From: Rhodopseudomonas palustris
GTDB taxonomy: Bacteria; Pseudomonadota; Alphaproteobacteria; Rhizobiales; Xanthobacteraceae
Assembly (NCBI RefSeq): GCF_034479375.1
Contig: NZ_CP140155.1
Coordinates: 372,001 to 436,000 of the forward strand
Length of the DNA stretch: 64,000 bases
Direction: 5' to 3'
Shown: one piece after another, positions 50,439 through 59,426 of the stretch
How positions within the stretch are numbered: the first letter of the stretch is position 1
Layout of the letters: each line of letters begins with the position of its first letter
Made by a program: the position numbers and the translations under genes
Notes under the pieces: generated by a model
Told to the model about the DNA's origin: nothing
Databases searched by the model: none
The model's input: only the letters and a program-made list of their open reading frames with translations

Positions 50439-51911
50439 CTATGCCGCATGCGCCTTCTTCAGATGCGTTGCGACCAGCTTGATATCGTCGACGAAGCGGG
50501 CGTATTCGCGTTGCCTGGCGTCGGCGTCCGGGAGGCGGAGCAGGTAGGAGGGATGCACCGTCACCAGCACCGGTGGGCCGTCGTCGCGGTCGATCAGATG
50601 GCCGCGGTTCTTGTTGATCGGGGTGATCTTGCCGAGCACGCTCTGCGCCGCCGTGGCGCCCATCGCCACCACCAGCAGCGGTTTGATCGTCGCGAGTTCG
50701 CGCTCGTACCAAGGGCGGCAGGCCTTGATCTCCGACGTGCTCGGTTTCTGATGCAGCCGAATCTTGCCGCGCGGCACGAATTTGAAATGCTTCACCGCGT
50801 TGGTGACGTAGGTCTCGGCGCGATCGATCCCGGCTTCCGCCAGCGCGCGATCGAGCATCTGCCCGGCGGGGCCGACGAACGGGTGGCCGGCGAGGTCTTC
50901 CTTGTCGCCGGGCTGCTCGCCGACCAGCATTACCCGCGCACGCTGCGGGCCTTCGCCGAACACGGTCTGGGTGGCGTCTTTCCACAGATCGCAGGCGCGG
51001 CAGTCGCGCGCCTCGTCGCGCAAGGCTTCAAGCGTATCGCCGGTGTGCTCGGTTCGGATCATCGGCAGCTCCTGTCGCTGCGGTTTCTTCGGTGCGGTGG
51101 CTTCGGCCGCGACCATCGCGTGCGCCTTGCGTTCGGCGTGTTCGATCAGCGGCCTGATCAGCGCCGCTTCGGGCAGGTTGCGCCAGTATTTCTTCGGCAT
51201 CTCGGCCCGCATCGCTTTGGTCTTCAGCCGCGCCGGATTGAAGATGCTGGCGTAGTAAGTCAGCCAGGTTTCCTCCAGCCGGTCCTCCGACGGCGCCATC
51301 GCTTTCGCCACGCCGGGCGTGATCGCGATCTTGTGGCCGTCCCAATGCGCGCAAGCGTCGGGCGTGAGAATCGACCATTCCATGTCGGCGAAACGACGGG
51401 CGAAGAACGGCGCGGCGGCCGCGACGATGTGATGCTCCGGCTCGAACCAGGCGACGTAGCGCGACTTCGGTTCGCGGCCTATCTCCCTGAAGCGGACGAA
51501 GGCGTGCATCTTGTGCTCGTCGCGCCGCACCGCTTTCGCCATCGTCTGCAGCCGCGCGACATCCGGATCGGTCGCCACCTGCATCAGCTCGGGATTGGCG
51601 CGCAGCCGCCACAGCAGTTGATACAAGTACGCGAAGCGCTGCGGATCGCGGTGCAGGATCGCGGTCTGCGCCAGTTCGACGAAGCGGGCGGGGACGTTGA
51701 AGGTGGGGAACGGGGAGGTCGGACTCTCGCGGTCGGGCGCAGCGGGCGTGGGCGCCGATGGCGCGAACTCGGCCGCATCGAACAGCTCCGGCTCGTCGCC
51801 GGCCACCGTCCACGTCACGTCCGCCGGCGCGACGTCCGCCAGCACCAGCTCCCGCGCCGCCTTGCGCCAGCCGTCGAAGTCGGTGTCGCTGTCGAGCCGG
51901 ATGCGGTGCAT
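50439..51911 (-). CDS. DUF4130-UdgX fusion, uracil-DNA glycosylase-like repair protein
   Basis: 490 residues in two parts. Residues 1 to about 260 are DUF4130 (TIGR03915), with FVELAQTAILHRDPQRF, RRDEHKMHAFVRFRE and DMEWSILTPDACAHWDG. Residues from about 285 are UdgX (TIGR03914). This part has CRACDLWKDATQTVFGEG with iron-sulfur cysteines, GEQPGDKEDLAGHPFVGPAG (motif A), TNAVKHFKF, and KIRLHQKPS with His387 at the place where UdgX histidine bonds covalently to the abasic sugar after uracil removal. It ends TVHPSYLLR. A radical SAM repair gene lies upstream on the same strand. The separate genes are usually neighbours; here two are fused. Confidence 0.92.
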   Translation of the reverse strand: MHRIRLDSDTDFDGWRKAARELVLADVAPADVTWTVAGDEPELFDAAEFAPSAPTPAAPDRESPTSPFPTFNVPARFVELAQTAILHRDPQRFAYLYQLLWRLRANPELMQVATDPDVARLQTMAKAVRRDEHKMHAFVRFREIGREPKSRYVAWFEPEHHIVAAAAPFFARRFADMEWSILTPDACAHWDGHKIAITPGVAKAMAPSEDRLEETWLTYYASIFNPARLKTKAMRAEMPKKYWRNLPEAALIRPLIEHAERKAHAMVAAEATAPKKPQRQELPMIRTEHTGDTLEALRDEARDCRACDLWKDATQTVFGEGPQRARVMLVGEQPGDKEDLAGHPFVGPAGQMLDRALAEAGIDRAETYVTNAVKHFKFVPRGKIRLHQKPSTSEIKACRPWYERELATIKPLLVVAMGATAAQSVLGKITPINKNRGHLIDRDDGPPVLVTVHPSYLLRLPDADARQREYARFVDDIKLVATHLKKAHAA

Positions 51912-51967
51912 GGTGGTGATGGCTTCGTCCCCTTGAATTGATTAGTTCGGCGATAGCCTCTCAACGC

Positions 51968-52056
51968 ATCATGGCCGGGCTCGTCCCGGCCATCCACGTC
52001 TTCCTCGCGGGGCGCGCTCGAGAACGTGGATGCCCGGCACAAGGCCGGGCATGACG
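51968..52056. repeat. Palindromic element, family A
   Basis: Hairpins GGCCGGG-CTCGT-CCCGGCC and GCCCGG-CACAAG-GCCGGGC between CATCATG and CATGACG ends, placed between the radical SAM and UdgX genes. Confidence 0.8.
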
Positions 52057-52080
52057 GAAGCTGTTATTTCGTTGCTGAAC

Positions 52081-53331
52081 TCAAAACCCAAATCCCAGTT
52101 GCTGCGCCTTCGGTCGAAACCGTTCCACCAGCTGCGCGCCGTCGAGCAAATGCGGCGGCGGACGGTGGTCGGGGAGAACGATGAATGGCAACGCCTTGTT
52201 CCTTGGGATGTGCAGCTTTGCCAGGTCGGCGGCGCGGATCGCGCTGTGTCGGCGGGTGTCGATGATGCGGTCGACCGCCTTGCGGCCGAAGCCCGGCACC
52301 CGCAGCAGGTCTTCGCGGCTGGCGCGGTTGACGTCGAGCGGGAAGCGCTCGCGGTTGCGGAGCGCCCAAGCGAGCTTCGGATCCATCTCAAGCGACAGCA
52401 TGCCGGCGGCGGGATCGATGATCTCCTGCGCATCGAAGCCGTAGAACCGCATCAGCCAATCGGCCTGATACAGCCGATGCTCGCGGATCAGCGGCGGCGC
52501 TGCCAGCGGCAGCGCGCGGCTGGAATCCGGGATCGGGCTGAACGCCGAGTAGTACACCCGCTTGAGATTGTAGGAACCGTAGAGATTGGCGCTGGTGTTC
52601 AGGATAGTCTGATCGGTCGCAGCATCCGCGCCGACGATCATCTGCGTGCTCTGGCCGGCCGGCGCGAAGCGCGGCGGCTTGGCACGACTGGGTGCCTTAC
52701 GCGCCTCCACCTTGGCCTCGGTCGCTTCGTCGAGCTTCAGCCGCAGCCGGCCCATAGTACGGCGGATGGCGCGGACGTTCTTCTCCGGCGCCAGCGCCGC
52801 GAGGCTTGTCTCCTCCGGCACCTCGATGTTGATGCTGAGCCGGTCGGCATAGCGGCCGGCCTTGGCGATCAGCGCGTCGTCGGCCTCGGGGATGGTCTTG
52901 AGGTGGATATAGCCGCGGAAGTGATGCTGTTCGCGCAGCGTCTGCGCCACGTGCACGATCTGCTCCATCGTGTAGTCGGCGCTGCGGATGATGCCGGACG
53001 ACAGGAACAACCCCTCGATGTAGTTGCGGCGATAGAAATCGAGCGTGAGCTGCACCACCTCGTCGACGGTGAAGCGGGCACGCGGCACGTTCGACGAGGC
53101 GCGGTTGACACAGTACAGGCAGTCGTAGGCGCAGGCATTGGTGAGCAGCACCTTCAAGAGCGAGATGCAGCGGCCGTCCGGCGCATAAGAGTGGCAGATC
53201 CCCATGCCGGGCGCGGTCGAGCCCAGCCCACGGCCGTCGCGGCTGTCGCGTTGCTCCGTCCCGCTCGAGGCGCAGGAGGCGTCGTATTTCGCCGCATCCG
53301 CCAGAATGGCCAGCTTGCGCTGCACGTCCAT
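52081..53331 (-). CDS. Putative DNA repair radical SAM protein (TIGR03916)
   Basis: 416 residues. The radical SAM cluster motif is NACAYDCLYC (CxxxCxxC, near residue 66-73). Then come RARFTVDEVVQLTLDFYRRNY, GLFLSSGIIRSADYTMEQ and NIEVPEETSLAALAPEKN, and a C-terminal helix-hairpin-helix DNA-binding region (DVNRASREDLLRVPGFGRKAVDRIID). This is the putative DNA modification/repair radical SAM protein that accompanies UdgX and DUF4130. The reaction is unknown. AAGGAG lies 9 bases before the ATG, and an SOS box lies 94 bases upstream. Confidence 0.9.
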   Translation of the reverse strand: MDVQRKLAILADAAKYDASCASSGTEQRDSRDGRGLGSTAPGMGICHSYAPDGRCISLLKVLLTNACAYDCLYCVNRASSNVPRARFTVDEVVQLTLDFYRRNYIEGLFLSSGIIRSADYTMEQIVHVAQTLREQHHFRGYIHLKTIPEADDALIAKAGRYADRLSINIEVPEETSLAALAPEKNVRAIRRTMGRLRLKLDEATEAKVEARKAPSRAKPPRFAPAGQSTQMIVGADAATDQTILNTSANLYGSYNLKRVYYSAFSPIPDSSRALPLAAPPLIREHRLYQADWLMRFYGFDAQEIIDPAAGMLSLEMDPKLAWALRNRERFPLDVNRASREDLLRVPGFGRKAVDRIIDTRRHSAIRAADLAKLHIPRNKALPFIVLPDHRPPPHLLDGAQLVERFRPKAQQLGFGF

Positions 53332-53424
53332 ACTTCGAATCTCCTTGATTCAATTCGCGAAAAAATTTGGCGCGGGACCTCGGAGCGATCCCGATTGACT
53401 CCCTGCCACGCTAGGGCTTTATTA

Positions 53425-53439
53425 GAACATATCATGAAC
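53425..53439. promoter_or_regulatory. SOS box (alphaproteobacterial LexA site)
   Basis: GAAC-ATATCAT-GAAC, which on the other strand is GTTC-N7-GTTC, the LexA recognition sequence of alphaproteobacteria. It lies 59 bases before imuA and 94 bases before the divergent radical SAM gene, so it could control both operons. Confidence 0.88.
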
Positions 53440-53497
53440 AAATGAGCCGGCAACGGGTTCACTGAATCTCGAAACGGCAACCAAGAAGGAGCGGCGC

Positions 53498-54280
53498 ATG
53501 ACCAGCGCGCGCCTCGACACGCTTGCGCGCCTGCAGGGCGCCATCGACCGGCTCGAAAGCGGGACGGCCGAGATCGTCCGGCGCGGCCCGCTTGGCCACG
53601 CGGATGCCGACGCCGCCCTGCAAGGCGGTCTCGCGCTCGGCGTGCTGCACGAAGTGTTCGCGGAAGGCCGCCACGGCGCGGCGGCGACGGGATTCGTCGC
53701 GGGGCTGGCGCGGCGGCTGGCCGAGCAGCGTTTCCTGCTGTGGATCCGATCGGATTTTTCCGCGCGTGAAAACGGCGAACTGGCGATGGAGGGCTTCGCC
53801 GAACTCGGGCTCGATCCGCGCCGCATCGTGATGGTGCGCGCGCACGACGCCGAGAGCGCGCTGCGCGCGTCGGCCGATGCGCTCGCCTGCAACGGGCTCG
53901 GTGCGGTGGTGACCGAACTGTGGGGCGAGACCCGCGCCTTCGATTTGGTCGCCTCGCGCAAGCTGACGCTGGCGGCGCAGCAGTCCGGCGTCACCGCGCT
54001 GATGCTGCGGATCGCTGCGACGCCGCAAGCCTCCACTGCGGAGACGCGCTGGGTGGTGCGCGCGGCGCATTCGCCGCAGATCGAGGGGTGGGGCGCGCCG
54101 GTGCTCGAGACCTCGCTCATTCGCAATCGTCACGGCCAGACCGGCCGCTGGATCATGGAATGGAATTGTGATGCGTGCCGCTTCCGTGAACCGCAGACGC
54201 ATCCTCGGCCTCTGGTTGCCGCGGTTGCCGACCGATCGTATCGAACGGAAATCGCCGCCGGGCGGCGGCTCGCCGGGTGA
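53498..54280 (+). CDS. imuA: ImuA, SOS mutagenesis RecA-like accessory protein
   Basis: 260 residues, a RecA/SulA-like protein without a normal Walker A. Matching parts: LGVLHEVFAEGRHGAAATGFVAGLARRLAEQ, FLLWIRSDFSARENGE, RRIVMVRAHDAESALRASADAL, VVTELWGETRAFDLVASRKLTLAAQQSGV and RWVVRAAHS. It works with ImuB and DnaE2 in SOS-induced translesion synthesis. AAGAAGGAG lies 6 bases before the ATG, and the SOS box is 59 bases upstream. Its last 110 bases overlap imuB in another frame. Confidence 0.92.
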   Translation: MTSARLDTLARLQGAIDRLESGTAEIVRRGPLGHADADAALQGGLALGVLHEVFAEGRHGAAATGFVAGLARRLAEQRFLLWIRSDFSARENGELAMEGFAELGLDPRRIVMVRAHDAESALRASADALACNGLGAVVTELWGETRAFDLVASRKLTLAAQQSGVTALMLRIAATPQASTAETRWVVRAAHSPQIEGWGAPVLETSLIRNRHGQTGRWIMEWNCDACRFREPQTHPRPLVAAVADRSYRTEIAAGRRLAG

Positions 54281-55766
54281 AGCGTCGCGCGCGCCGCGGG
54301 TGGTCGCCGCCAAGCGCGACAATGCGATGGCGGTGATCGCCTGCGATGCGTGCGCGACGCAGGGCGGGCTGATGCCGGGGATGCCGCTCGCCACCGCACG
54401 GGCGATGCATCCCTTGCTCGACGTGATCGATCACGATCCGCATGCCGACGCCGCGCTGCTCGCGGCCGTCGCCGACTGGTGCGACCGCTTCACGCCGCTG
54501 GTGGCGTTCGACGGCGCCGATGGCTTGCTGCTCGACATCACCGGCTGCGCGCATCTGTTCGGCGACGAGGCCGAACTGATGCGCCTGCTGACCATTGCGC
54601 TGACACGGCAGGGCTTTGCGGTCAGCGCAGCGATCGCCGGCACGGCCGTGGCGGCGCGGGCGCTGACCCGCGGCGCGCCGGGCAGGATCGTGGCGCCGGG
54701 CGAGGAAGCCGCCGCGGTCGCGCCGCTGCCGGTGGCGGCGCTGGGCGTCAGCGAGGCGATCGTCCGCGGGCTGCGCCGCGCCGGGCTGACGACGATCGGC
54801 GATGTGCTGGCGCGGCAGCCGTCCGAACTCGCGGCGCGGTTCGGCGAAGCCTTCGTCGCGGTGCTGCGACAGGCCACCGGCGACGACGACGCGCCGATTT
54901 CGCCGCGCAAGCCGGCGCCGGACTACGTGGTCGACAAGCGCTTCCCCGAGCCGGTCGCGACCACCGACGTGATCCTGCCGACACTGCTGGCGCTGGCGCG
55001 GCTGCTGATCGCGGCGATGGAGCGTGGCGGCAAGGGCGCGCGGCAGCTCACCGCCTCGTTCTTCCGCAGCGATGGCGCCGTGCGCAGCATTGTGGTCGAG
55101 GCCGGACAGCCGGTGACGCGGGTCGAGGTCGTCCAGCGGCTGTTTGCGGAACGGCTCGACGTGCTGGCGGACCCGCTGGATCCCGGCTTCGGCTTCGACC
55201 TGATCCGCCTCGCCGCGAACCAGTGCGTTGCCATCGCCGAGGCGCAGCGTGGTTTCGACACCCATGCGCATCAGGCCGAGGACGTGGTTGCGCTGGCCGA
55301 TACCTTGTCGGCGCGGCTCGGAGCAAAGCGGGTGGTGCGTTATCTGCCGCGGGACACCCATATTCCGGAGCGCGCGGCGCTCGCCGTGCCGGTGCAGCAT
55401 TGCCCGCCGGACGCTGGCGATGCGCCGTGGCCGGCGCGTTCCGACGAGCCGCCGCTGCGGCCGCTGCGCCTGCTGCAGCCGCCGGAGCCGATCGAGGTGC
55501 TGGCGGGCGTGCCGGACGGCCCGCCGGCGCAATTCACCTGGCGGCGCGTCACCCATCGCGTCGCGCGCGCCGAGGGGCCGGAGCGGATCGCGATGGAGTG
55601 GTGGCGCGCGGCGCAGCCTGGGCTCACCCGCGATTACTTCCGGATCGAGGACGAGGCCGGGTCACGATTCTGGCTGTATCGCGACGGCCTCTACGGCGTC
55701 GAAGTACTGCCGCAGCCGGACGGCAGCGGCCAGCCGCGCTGGTACATGCACGGCCTGTTCGCATGA
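54171..55766 (+). CDS. imuB: ImuB, Y-family polymerase-like translesion adaptor
   Basis: 531 residues of Y-family polymerase fold. The beginning RRILGLWLPRLPTDRIER lacks the first metal-binding acidic residue of active Y polymerases, as in other ImuB proteins, which act as a hub linking DnaE2 and the beta clamp. Other parts: RVVAAKRDNAMAVIACDACA, PLLDVIDHDPHADAALLAAVADWCDRFTP and LLLDITGCAHLFGDE. The start is ATG 54171, with a GTG at 54168 as an alternative; GGAATGGA lies upstream. It overlaps the imuA end by 110 bases, so translation is coupled. Confidence 0.92.
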   Translation: MRAASVNRRRILGLWLPRLPTDRIERKSPPGGGSPGEASRAPRVVAAKRDNAMAVIACDACATQGGLMPGMPLATARAMHPLLDVIDHDPHADAALLAAVADWCDRFTPLVAFDGADGLLLDITGCAHLFGDEAELMRLLTIALTRQGFAVSAAIAGTAVAARALTRGAPGRIVAPGEEAAAVAPLPVAALGVSEAIVRGLRRAGLTTIGDVLARQPSELAARFGEAFVAVLRQATGDDDAPISPRKPAPDYVVDKRFPEPVATTDVILPTLLALARLLIAAMERGGKGARQLTASFFRSDGAVRSIVVEAGQPVTRVEVVQRLFAERLDVLADPLDPGFGFDLIRLAANQCVAIAEAQRGFDTHAHQAEDVVALADTLSARLGAKRVVRYLPRDTHIPERAALAVPVQHCPPDAGDAPWPARSDEPPLRPLRLLQPPEPIEVLAGVPDGPPAQFTWRRVTHRVARAEGPERIAMEWWRAAQPGLTRDYFRIEDEAGSRFWLYRDGLYGVEVLPQPDGSGQPRWYMHGLFA

Positions 55767-55798
55767 GGGACAGGCGAATGTGTTGCACAGCCTCTCCC

Positions 55799-55886
55799 CG
55801 TCATTGCGAGGAGGCGAAGCCGACGAAGCAATCCAGAAGCTCCGTGTACGGGGCTTCTGGATTGCTTCGCTTCGCTCGCAATGACG
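55799..55886. repeat. Palindromic element, CATTGCGAG type (family D)
   Basis: 88 bases. CGTCATTGCGAG at one end and CTCGCAATGACG at the other, with inner GAAGCAATCCAGAAG and CTTCTGGATTGCTTC arms. It fills the gap between imuB and dnaE2. Only one copy of this type occurs in the window. Confidence 0.85.
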
Positions 55887-55919
55887 GAGTTGTCACTTAA
55901 TTTCTGAGACGAGACGCCA

Positions 55920-58900
55920 ATGAGCGCGCCGCGCTACGCCGAGATCGGCGTCACCACCAATTTCTCGTTCCTCGAGGGCGGCTCGCATCCGCAGGACTAT
56001 GTCCATGAAGCGAGCCGGCTCGGGCTGTACGCGATCGGCATCGCCGATCGCAACACCCTGGCCGGCGTGGTCCGCGCCTACAGCGAACTCGACAATGAGG
56101 ACCTCGCTTATAAGCCGAAACTGCTGATCGGCGCACGGCTGTGCTTCACCGACGGCACCCCCGACCTGCTGGCCTATCCGACCGACCGCGCCGCCTATGG
56201 CCGTCTCTGTCGCCTGCTCAGCACCGGCAAGCTGCGCGCCGGGAAGGGCGAGTGCCATCTGACGGTTGCGGATCTGGAGGCTTTTATCCACCAACCTCCG
56301 ATCGCTATCCATCAGCCATCGCTTTCGTCATGGCCGGGCTCGTCCCGGCCATCCACGTCCTCAAGCGAGGCCGTGCTGGTGTCCGTGGATGCCCGGGTCA
56401 AGCCCGGGCATGACGAGGGGAGGCGCAAGAGTGATCCATCGCAGATCCTGTTAGTCCTGATGCCGTCATATCGGTTTCAATCAAAAAGAATTGCCGAAGC
56501 GTTGGAGCGGTTGACGGCGCTGAACAGCGGCAGCGGCAGCGGCAGCGTCTGGCTCGGCCTCGCGCCGTATTATCGCGGTGACGACAGGCGGCGGCTCGCC
56601 CGGCTACGGCGGATCGCGGCGGCGGCCAAAGTGCCGGGCATCGCCACCAACGACGTGCTGTATCACCATCCGTCGCGGCGCGCGTTGCAGGACGTGCTGA
56701 CCTGCGTGCGCGAGAAAACCACGATCGACAAGGTCGGCCGGCGCCTGGAAGGCAATGCCGAGCGGCATCTCAAGCCCGCCGCCGAGATGATGCGGCTGTT
56801 TCGCACCGATCCCGATGCGATCGCCGAGACGCTGCGCTTCGCGGACCGCATCTCGTTCACGCTGGACGAACTCCAATATCACTATCCCGACGAGCCGGTG
56901 CCGCCCGGCAAGACCGCGCAACAGCATCTGCGCGACCTGACCGAGCAGGGCATCGCCGAATATTTTCCGAACGGCATCAGCGACAGACTGCGCGCCACCA
57001 TCGACAAGGAATTGACCCTCATCGCGCGGCGCGACTACGCGCATTACTTCCTTACCGTGCACGACATCGTCCGCTATGCGCGGTCGCAGAACATCCTGTG
57101 CCAGGGCCGCGGCTCGGCGGCGAATTCCGCGGTGTGCTACGTGCTCGGCATCACTTGCGTCGATCCGACCGAGATCGACCTGCTGTTCGAGCGCTTCGTC
57201 TCCGAGGAGCGCGACGAGCCGCCGGACATCGACGTCGATTTCGAACATTCGCGCCGCGAAGAGGTGATGCAGTACATCTATCGCCGCTACGGCCGCCACC
57301 GCGCCGCGATCGTCTCCACCGTGATCCATTATCGGCCACGCTCGGCGATCCGCGACGTCGGCAAGGCGCTGGGGCTGTCCGAAGACGTCACCGCGGCGCT
57401 CGCCGACACGGTGTGGGGAAGCTGGGGCAAGGGCCTCAACGAGATGCAGGTGCGCCAGGCCGGGCTCGATCCCGCCAATCCGATGATCGTGCGCGCGGTC
57501 GAGCTCGCCACCGAGCTGATCGGCTTTCCGCGGCATCTGTCGCAGCATGTCGGCGGCTATGTGCTGACCCAGGATCGGCTCGACAGCTACGTGCCGATCG
57601 GCAACGCCGCGATGGAGGATCGCACCTTCATCGAATGGGACAAGGACGACATCGACGCGGTGAAAATGATGAAGGTCGACGTGCTGGCGCTCGGCATGCT
57701 GACCTGCATCCGCAAGGGTTTTGATCTGATCGCGCAGCACAAGGGCGTGCGCTTCCAACTCTCCGATATCAAGTCTGTGGACGACAATAACGTCTACCGG
57801 ATGCTCCAGCGCGGCGAATCGATCGGCGTGTTCCAGGTCGAGAGCCGGGCGCAGATGAACATGCTGCCGCGGCTGAAGCCGCGCTGCTTCTACGACCTCG
57901 TCATCGAAGTCGCGATCGTGCGGCCCGGCCCGATCCAGGGAGACATGGTGCATCCGTATTTGCGGCGGCGGAACGGCCAGGAGCCGGTGGTGTATCCGTC
58001 GCCGTCGGGCGAGGCCGGCGACAAGAACGAGCTGCGGCAGATCCTCGGCAAGACGCTCGGCGTGCCGCTGTTCCAGGAGCAGGCAATGCGGATCGCGATC
58101 GAGGCCGCGCATTTCACGCCGGACGAGGCCAATCAGCTCCGCCGCGCGATGGCGACGTTTCGCAATGTCGGCACCATCGGCAAGTTCGAGGCCAAGATGG
58201 TCGGCAATCTGATGGCGCGCGGCTACGACGCCACCTTCGCCAAGAACTGCTTCGAACAGATCAAGGGCTTCGGCTCTTACGGCTTTCCGGAAAGCCATGC
58301 CGCCAGCTTCGCCAAGCTGGTCTATGTCTCGGCGTGGATGAAATGCGAGCATCCAGACGCGTTCTGTTGTGCGCTGCTGAATTCGCAGCCGATGGGTTTC
58401 TACGCGCCGGCGCAGATCGTCGGCGATGCGCGTGCCAACAAAGTCGAGGTGCGGCCGGTCGACGTCTCGTTCAGCGACGGCCAGTGCACGCTGGAGGAGC
58501 GCTGCGGCGAACATCACGCGGTGCGGCTCGGCTTCCGGATGATCGACGGCTTCCGCTGGGCCGATCCGGACGAGGAGCGGGTGCGGCGCGAAGCCGGCGA
58601 GGCGCCGAGCGACGACTGGGCGGCGCGGATCGTCGCGGCGCGGGCGAGGGCGCCGTTCGGTTCGCTCGAACAGTTCGCGCGATCGACCGCGCTGTCGAAG
58701 CGGGCGCTGATCCTGCTGGCGGATGCCGACGCGTTCCGCTCGCTCGGGCTCGATCGGCGCGCGGCGCTATGGGCGGTGCGGCGGCTGCCCGACGACGTGC
58801 CGTTGCCGCTGTTCGAAGCCGCGCGCGCGCAGGAACAGCAGGATGAACATACTGCGCCGTTGCCGCAGATGCCGATGGCCGAGCACGTGGTCGCCGACTA

Positions 58901-59426
58901 TCAGACCGTGCGGCTGTCGCTGAAGGGCCATCCGATGGAATTTTTGCGAGCCTTGTTCGCGGCGGAGCGCGTCGTCACCTGCCGCAATGTCTCGGGAATG
59001 CGCAGCAGCGGCCGGCGGCTGCGCTGCGCCGGCGTGGTGCTGGTGCGGCAGCGGCCGGGCAGCGCCAACGGCGTGATCTTCATGACGATCGAGGACGAGA
59101 CCGGCATCGCCAACATCGTGGTGTGGCCGGCGGTGATGGAGAAATTCCGCAAGGAAGTGATGGGCGCGCGGCTGATCCTGGTCGAAGGCAAGATTCAGGC
59201 GAGCCCCGAAGGCGTGGTGCATCTGGTCGCCGAGCGACTGATCGACCGCTCTCACGACATGGCGCGGCTATCGGACGATCTCGCGGCGCGGCCGCCGCTG
59301 TCGCCCGCCGCCGAGTTGTATGAGCCGCTGAACGGCGACCGCCGCGACAACCCCGACGCGCCCGCCCAGCGCCTGCGCCACCCCCGCGACGTCCGCATCC
59401 TGCCGCCGTCGCGGGATTTCCATTGA
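55920..59426 (+). CDS. dnaE2: Error-prone DNA polymerase DnaE2 (ImuC)
   Basis: 1168 residues, a C-family polymerase subunit for SOS translesion synthesis. The PHP domain starts YAEIGVTTNFSFLEGGSHP. The polymerase core has GRGSAANSAVCYVLGIT, DEPPDIDVDFEHSRREEV, SQHVGGYVLTQDRLDSYVPI and VQVESRAQMN-like FQVESRAQMNMLPRLKP; an OB domain (FMTIEDETGIANIVVWP) ends the chain. It is longer than typical DnaE2. Part of the excess is residues 136-165, encoded by a family A palindromic element at 56326-56415 kept in frame. The ATG has only a weak ribosome binding site. Confidence 0.94.
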   Translation: MSAPRYAEIGVTTNFSFLEGGSHPQDYVHEASRLGLYAIGIADRNTLAGVVRAYSELDNEDLAYKPKLLIGARLCFTDGTPDLLAYPTDRAAYGRLCRLLSTGKLRAGKGECHLTVADLEAFIHQPPIAIHQPSLSSWPGSSRPSTSSSEAVLVSVDARVKPGHDEGRRKSDPSQILLVLMPSYRFQSKRIAEALERLTALNSGSGSGSVWLGLAPYYRGDDRRRLARLRRIAAAAKVPGIATNDVLYHHPSRRALQDVLTCVREKTTIDKVGRRLEGNAERHLKPAAEMMRLFRTDPDAIAETLRFADRISFTLDELQYHYPDEPVPPGKTAQQHLRDLTEQGIAEYFPNGISDRLRATIDKELTLIARRDYAHYFLTVHDIVRYARSQNILCQGRGSAANSAVCYVLGITCVDPTEIDLLFERFVSEERDEPPDIDVDFEHSRREEVMQYIYRRYGRHRAAIVSTVIHYRPRSAIRDVGKALGLSEDVTAALADTVWGSWGKGLNEMQVRQAGLDPANPMIVRAVELATELIGFPRHLSQHVGGYVLTQDRLDSYVPIGNAAMEDRTFIEWDKDDIDAVKMMKVDVLALGMLTCIRKGFDLIAQHKGVRFQLSDIKSVDDNNVYRMLQRGESIGVFQVESRAQMNMLPRLKPRCFYDLVIEVAIVRPGPIQGDMVHPYLRRRNGQEPVVYPSPSGEAGDKNELRQILGKTLGVPLFQEQAMRIAIEAAHFTPDEANQLRRAMATFRNVGTIGKFEAKMVGNLMARGYDATFAKNCFEQIKGFGSYGFPESHAASFAKLVYVSAWMKCEHPDAFCCALLNSQPMGFYAPAQIVGDARANKVEVRPVDVSFSDGQCTLEERCGEHHAVRLGFRMIDGFRWADPDEERVRREAGEAPSDDWAARIVAARARAPFGSLEQFARSTALSKRALILLADADAFRSLGLDRRAALWAVRRLPDDVPLPLFEAARAQEQQDEHTAPLPQMPMAEHVVADYQTVRLSLKGHPMEFLRALFAAERVVTCRNVSGMRSSGRRLRCAGVVLVRQRPGSANGVIFMTIEDETGIANIVVWPAVMEKFRKEVMGARLILVEGKIQASPEGVVHLVAERLIDRSHDMARLSDDLAARPPLSPAAELYEPLNGDRRDNPDAPAQRLRHPRDVRILPPSRDFH
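56326..56415. repeat. Family A palindromic element inside the dnaE2 coding sequence
   Basis: 90 bases with hairpins GGCCGGG-CTCGT-CCCGGCC and GCCCGGG-TCAA-GCCCGGGC inside CGTCAT/ATGACG ends, the same as the intergenic copies. It is read without a stop codon and adds about 30 residues (beginning SSWPGSSRPS, ending VKPGHD). Confidence 0.9.

Follow-up and report, generated by a model that had tools for sequence, protein, structure and literature searches.

A predicted LexA operator shared by imuA-imuB-dnaE2 and a radical SAM/DUF4130-UdgX operon in Rhodopseudomonas palustris

Genes that pair a radical S-adenosylmethionine (SAM) protein with a uracil-DNA glycosylase (UDG) have been proposed as LexA targets before. 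The passages retrieved from a 2013 study of Clostridium acetobutylicum (PMC3828012) predict CAC3343-CAC3344 to be a LexA operon, and those from Sanchez-Osuna et al. (2021; PMC8565304) predict SOS control for a two-gene UDG-COG4277 operon of Bacteroidetes and cite an SOS-regulated UDG-based repair system in Verrucomicrobia and Alphaproteobacteria. Two further studies (PMC7739468 and, on Streptomyces, PMC9380542) place a radical SAM protein, of a family unspecified in the retrieved passages, in LexA regulons, and a passage of a 2026 Acinetobacter study (PMC13130816) reports that a gene with the same product name as the radical SAM gene studied here is up-regulated on desiccation. The regulation of such pairs is thus known in kind. 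An operator shared with imuA is new: we found no mention of one in the open-access literature searched. Here we describe such an arrangement in 64 kb of Rhodopseudomonas palustris DNA (contig NZ_CP140155.1, positions 372,001 to 436,000; hereafter the window), which is part of a 5.3-Mb single contig that we scanned as the genome. One LexA-type box lies between the imuA-imuB-dnaE2 genes and a divergent operon encoding a radical SAM protein and a DUF4130-UdgX fusion. Comparison with related loci makes it likely, in our view, that this box is the ancestral operator of imuA, that it serves both directions and that the radical SAM operon is damage-induced through LexA.

An earlier reading of the window from its letters alone (the sequence-only reading) had placed a GAAC-N7-GAAC motif at 53425, in the gap between imuA and the radical SAM gene. 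We confirmed an exact match, GAACATATCATGAAC, at 53425-53439; the start codons of the two divergent genes are 166 bases apart (53332-53497). This is the sole exact GAAC-N7-GAAC in the window. Shuffled versions of the window held 1.66 matches on average and at least one match in 85 of 100 cases, and the window count by itself is not significant; significance comes from position and comparison. A chance match between neighbouring genes would fit the count, with one to two matches expected in 64 kb, but it is refuted by conservation of the box across the clade and by private boxes in relatives, and we assign it a negligible probability.

At genome scale, GAAC-N7-GAAC occurred 136 times compared with 58 times for the reversed control pattern, and a form with an AT-rich core, GAACAWRNNNNGAAC, 18 times compared with three. 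Eight of these 18 boxes are the present one and those that precede recA, uvrA, ssb, radA, two dnaE genes and a PA0069-family radical SAM gene; no tie to a known SOS gene was established for the remaining 10. LexA itself is encoded in the genome (178.2 bits, cut-off 110.95), and a box, GAACACATACTGAAC, lies at genome positions 1294168-1294182, upstream of the lexA match ending at 1294050. We had considered divergent uvrA/ssb as a parallel case of one box common to two genes and dropped it, since in the present genome each has a box of its own and a further gene lies between the two. The identical 15-mer GAACATATCATGAAC has three more genome copies (L027 at 1310343, L113 at 1426959 and L119 at 2207840), of which L027 directly precedes an open reading frame that matches a SocA-type antitoxin model below its cut-off (137 bits against 190).

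We then looked at what precedes the radical SAM gene in other genomes. Copies over the model cut-off were found in 12 of 240 genomes in a survey of the class, 84 of 398 in the phylum and 28 of 150 in the order. The window's own copy (L130) and one copy cut by a contig end (L137) were dropped before boxes were counted, and removal of overlap between the surveys left 110 copies, 81 from alphaproteobacteria (24 families by hand count of the taxonomy labels) and 29 from other Pseudomonadota. GAAC-N7-GAAC is the alphaproteobacterial type of LexA box and CTGT-N8-ACAG the gamma- and betaproteobacterial type. Upstream of the radical SAM gene, the former lay no more than 200 nt from the start in 80/81 alphaproteobacterial copies and within 60 nt in 73/81, compared with means of 0.51 and 0.20, respectively, after shuffling of the upstream regions; of 5048 windows of 60 nt taken from other parts of these loci, only 3 contained it. 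Among alphaproteobacterial copies without an adjoining imuA, 72 of 73 had the box within 60 nt, most commonly at 17 nt. Exact CTGT-N8-ACAG was absent within 200 nt in these genomes (0/81), and allowing one mismatch gave 2/81 within 60 nt. The other Pseudomonadota showed the reverse: GAAC-N7-GAAC was found in 0/29 within 200 nt and exact CTGT-N8-ACAG in 16/29, rising to 19/29 when overlap with the start codon was allowed and to 24/29 when one mismatch was allowed as well (shuffle mean 0.73, maximum 4). The type of motif therefore changes with the lineage although the gene does not, a pattern that argues for LexA control and is hard to explain otherwise.

The gene is also found on mobile or ambiguous records. 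Plasmid records with a homologue number 158 (58 from Phaeobacter), and a Leisingera plasmid copy near repABC (L293, NZ_CP041158.1) is preceded, at 26 nt, by a box of its own. A record labelled as an Acinetobacter phage (L292, CAKLQH020000003.1) carries the radical SAM-DUF4130 pair flanked by bacterial-looking glyS, glyQ and aidB; given these chromosomal-type neighbours, the label may be wrong and the contig bacterial. Three of the non-alphaproteobacterial copies that have no recognisable box (L208, L209 and L213) belong to one genus and have an unexplained inverted repeat at the box position, GGTCTCAT-CC-AATGAGACC in L209 and L213 and a variant of it in L208.

The sequence-only reading had called for a survey of the gene order and had seen in the block a combined mutagenesis and base-repair island. 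The gene order is present here, but in the sampled genomes it was seen only in a single clade within the window's family and in one further case from the same order; in most relatives the radical SAM pair lies apart from imuA and has a private box. The radical SAM gene was over cut-off in 29 of 119 sampled genomes of the family, and all 29 copies (window included) had one box within 300 nt. Eighteen of them, again with the window included, are head-to-head with imuA, with the box at a distance of 62-123 nt from the start of the radical SAM gene. The other 11 have no adjoining imuA and a private box 15-40 nt from the start; their genomes carry imuA at another site, where it also has GAAC-N7-GAAC upstream. 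TTGAC precedes this imuA box in 10 of 10 unlinked genomes examined, and TTGACT in seven, although several of the unlinked imuA starts are uncertain and two of the imuA matches are weak (L286 and L287).

A conserved core was apparent in 22 linked loci and the window: TTGACTC, a spacer, and the box GAACATAtCATGAAC, flanked by TATTA and AA. Since this core corresponds to the arrangement before imuA, the shared box is most simply that of imuA, and the radical SAM operon would be the one that lost its private box. A tree of 132 radical SAM protein sequences, from which two copies were left out because the match contains a stop or is split (L269 and L275), placed 21 of the 22 linked copies in one clade with a support of 0.894. 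The odd copy, G737, falls among unlinked copies and has boxes at 18, 53 and 170 nt, plausibly a half-way state. Methylopila capsulata (L057) has the same three boxes; it may belong to the same or a near species and is not an independent case. From these comparisons we infer the direction of change: in the present clade, the pair probably became a neighbour of imuA and now relies on the imuA box, its private one having been lost.

The intergenic region itself is easier to interpret on the imuA side. Candidate -10 elements for imuA, TTTATT (53418-53423) or TATTAG (53420-53425), abut or overlap the box; a stricter promoter scan called none in the intergenic region on either strand. Several points weigh against damage induction of the radical SAM operon from this site. 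The best promoter match toward the radical SAM gene, TTGCCG-N16-TATGTT, agrees at 8 of 12 positions, overlaps the box and is not convincing, so that an unregulated promoter could lie between the box and the gene. In unlinked relatives the box is 15-51 nt from the start of the gene, whereas here the distance is ~100 nt. The radical SAM and UdgX genes are separated by 169 nt, in which an 88-nt palindromic repeat folds strongly (z -3.9), and together the gap and the hairpin make equal expression of the two genes uncertain; a terminator was sought in this gap and none was found. The box counts given above are raw genome counts, uncorrected for species relatedness, and a recognisable box is absent in one of the 81 alphaproteobacterial copies (G198) and in five of the 29 others.

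Some of these points would equally be expected if the box served imuA only and the radical SAM operon of this clade had escaped LexA and ran from a nearer, unregulated promoter: the box fits the imuA arrangement of unlinked relatives, it abuts a recognisable imuA promoter, some 100 nt separate it from the start of the radical SAM gene, and no convincing promoter faces that way. However, boxes before the radical SAM gene are near-universal in alphaproteobacteria, all 18 linked copies of the family hold the radical SAM start within the same 62-123 nt of the box, and loss of control in this clade only would run counter to an otherwise strong pattern. We consider escape from LexA unlikely. On the comparative evidence, LexA control of the radical SAM/UdgX operon through the operator of imuA is very probable. 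Damage induction through a shared box, as the sequence-only reading suggested, is supported by comparison, although LexA control of such operons had already been proposed in print.

Two features near these sites are worth recording. In many linked loci, the ribosome-binding region of the radical SAM gene, at 53332-53360 (minus strand) in the window, lies within or near a short inverted repeat, GAATC-N5-GATTC, which might fold as a small hairpin around the ribosome-binding site. A second copy of the 88-nt palindromic repeat, 82% identical to that at 51969-52056, lies in frame within dnaE2 (56328-56415), where it occupies codons about 137-166; the gene has ~50 extra residues overall, and the copy is absent from nine compared relatives. 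The half-sites of the repeat have 166 matches in the genome, compared with none for the control.

The positions of the genes and sites are collected in Table 1. Profile searches matched the radical SAM protein to TIGR03916, which we take to be the same family as COG4277, at 564.1 bits (cut-off 343.5), and the fusion to TIGR03915 at 246.6 bits (cut-off 112.25) and to the UdgX model TIGR03914 at 349 bits (cut-off 189.95). DnaE2 was identified with PRK05672 (error-prone polymerase; 1585.6 bits, cut-off 939) and the Y-family domain of ImuB with PF00817 (40.1, cut-off 23.2). ImuA had no Pfam match and only a weak match to its own model (44.6 bits, cut-off 150), and was named from this match and from gene order. 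The nearest radical SAM proteins among named linked loci, at 93%, are from Rhodopseudomonas.

Table 1. Predicted genes and sites at the imuA/radical SAM locus (window coordinates).
Feature	Position	Strand	Basis and remarks
DUF4130-UdgX fusion, 490 aa (TIGR03915 aa 7-249, TIGR03914 aa 251-480)	50439..51911	-	
REP-like palindromic repeat, radical SAM/UdgX gap (169 nt)	51969..52056	not assigned	
Radical SAM protein, 416 aa, TIGR03916 (rSAM_link_UDG)	52081..53331	-	Model match, alignments
Probable imuA promoter, -35 TTGACT	53395..53400	+	Crude scan, 9/12 matches; TTGACTC kept in linked loci
LexA (SOS) box GAACATATCATGAAC, predicted shared operator	53425..53439	+	Kept in imuA-linked intergenic regions
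imuA (RecA-like accessory protein)	53498..54280	+	Weak model match, gene order
imuB (Y-family polymerase-like)	54168..55766	+	PF00817; overlaps imuA end; start codon uncertain
dnaE2 error-prone polymerase	55920..59426	+	Model match; carries in-frame repeat-derived insertion

The radical SAM protein has the cluster motif C67-C71-C74 (CX3CX2C), which was invariant in 56 of 56 copies and in 4 of 4 further ones, and three extra invariant cysteines, C20, C46 and C55, which suggest a second metal site. An HhH domain, assigned by the sequence-only reading, is reduced to a weak HhH region at about residues 316-361, where the matches fall under the Pfam cut-offs. Among the best 50 matches of each fold search with a structure model were radical SAM enzymes such as LipA, HydE and BioB; the model is weak where the extra cysteines lie (predicted local distance difference test scores of about 58-76).

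Could the protein be an enzyme of the spore photoproduct lyase (SPL) type that reverses a UV dimer directly? This concerns chemistry only and is compatible with LexA control from the shared box. A reading as an SplB-like photolyase was given by Aravind et al. (2013; PMC3765255), in the passage retrieved, and UV repair would fit SOS control. No SPL appeared among nine sequence matches of solved structure (E up to 1) or among the fold matches listed (best 50 each), neither of which excludes SPL; the three extra cysteines and the separate, SOS-boxed PA0069-family radical SAM gene in the genome argue further against it. We keep an SPL-type reaction as a real but minor possibility. The PA0069-family gene (584.8 bits, cut-off 360) has its SOS-type box (L123, genome 3328317-3328331) ~84 nt upstream of the called start, and the LexA-controlled radical SAM repair proteins of this genome may number two.

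The phylum survey bears on the domain partnership. DUF4130 is encoded next to the radical SAM gene in the window and was present in all 84 radical SAM genomes of the 398-genome draw; UdgX was over cut-off in 63 of the 84 and absent from 21. The sequence-only reading had treated radical SAM and UdgX as the pair. That association holds for the DUF4130 partner, and the obligate pair, as far as these genomes tell, is radical SAM plus DUF4130, with UdgX as an add-on. Fusion of UdgX to DUF4130 was seen in 65 of 79 proteins; no UdgX over cut-off was found in the 13 genomes with DUF4130-alone operons, 11 of which have weaker, sub-cut-off UDG matches, and 15 genomes carry UdgX without the radical SAM gene. 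Fold searches with a model of the fusion gave lists of matches filled by UDG structures. Its UdgX domain has motif A GEQPG (GEQPGD) at 331 and R385 and H387 in the R-loop; motif A, and the R-loop Arg and His, were conserved in 65/65 fused proteins, that of the window included.

UdgX makes a covalent adduct with DNA, according to passages of PMC10776899 and PMC10359453, and together with the frequent fusion to DUF4130 this raises the question of whether the radical SAM-DUF4130 pair resolves or limits that adduct. The 21 radical SAM genomes without UdgX disfavour adduct resolution as a general role, and neither the lack of UdgX over cut-off in all 13 genomes with DUF4130-alone operons nor the 15 genomes in which UdgX occurs without the radical SAM gene fits it. 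We regard such a role as very unlikely.

A working model can be outlined for the shared operator. LexA would bind the single site at 53425 and repress both operons, with radical SAM and UdgX co-transcribed. DNA damage and the cleavage of LexA would then switch on the ImuAB-DnaE2 mutagenesis proteins and the radical SAM operon together. ImuAB-DnaE2 would bypass lesions, and the radical SAM protein with DUF4130 would act on a DNA lesion; the attached UdgX would excise uracil and cap the site covalently via His387, and could shield it during bypass by DnaE2. A deaminated pyrimidine dimer is a speculative candidate substrate, whose reversal would leave uracil for UdgX. The block may contribute to base repair. 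More tentatively, radical SAM plus DUF4130 may make up an inducible enzyme that acts on DNA lesions and has a second metal site, with UdgX, where present, capping exposed uracil and DnaE2 bypassing it. It is possible, to about the same degree, that the two proteins form an unrecognised SOS enzyme with lesion chemistry of its own, distinct from that of SPL, which uses the radical SAM cluster together with a second iron-sulfur site at C20/C46/C55 and in this clade is locked by its operator to a mutagenic polymerase.

If the model is correct, one operator starts lesion processing, uracil capture and bypass together. What looked like an effect of neighbouring genes becomes a testable regulon claim for an enzyme pair that has a box in 80/81 other alphaproteobacterial copies. 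Culturable genera such as Rhodopseudomonas and Bradyrhizobium carry the predicted shared operator, and a single mutation of the box should affect both operons. The extra cysteines and the dispensable UdgX narrow the question of chemistry to radical SAM plus DUF4130.

How does the locus compare with known systems? Lipoyl synthase, HydE and biotin synthase are 10-18% identical to the radical SAM protein, and the common fold shows no common reaction. Mycobacterium smegmatis UdgX (PDB 6l6s, 6iod and 6ajo) is the counterpart of the UdgX domain, which in the window is fused to DUF4130 and encoded in a predicted SOS operon with a radical SAM gene. The CAC3343-CAC3344 (PMC3828012) and UDG-COG4277 (PMC8565304) operons are likewise radical SAM or UDG repair pairs that footprinting or comparative genomics has assigned to LexA; CAC3343 bears the product name of TIGR03916, both operons are from other phyla, and imuA linkage is unmentioned in the passages retrieved. 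The window's operon matches the TIGR03916/TIGR03915/TIGR03914 operon of its relatives, with all three models over their cut-offs and the same two-gene order, but it shares its predicted operator head-to-head with imuABC whereas elsewhere the box is private. The mutagenesis genes have the gene order and, by prediction, the SOS control described for the Caulobacter imuA-imuB-dnaE2 cassette (PMC1839093, in the passage retrieved); in the window, the predicted operator additionally faces a repair operon.

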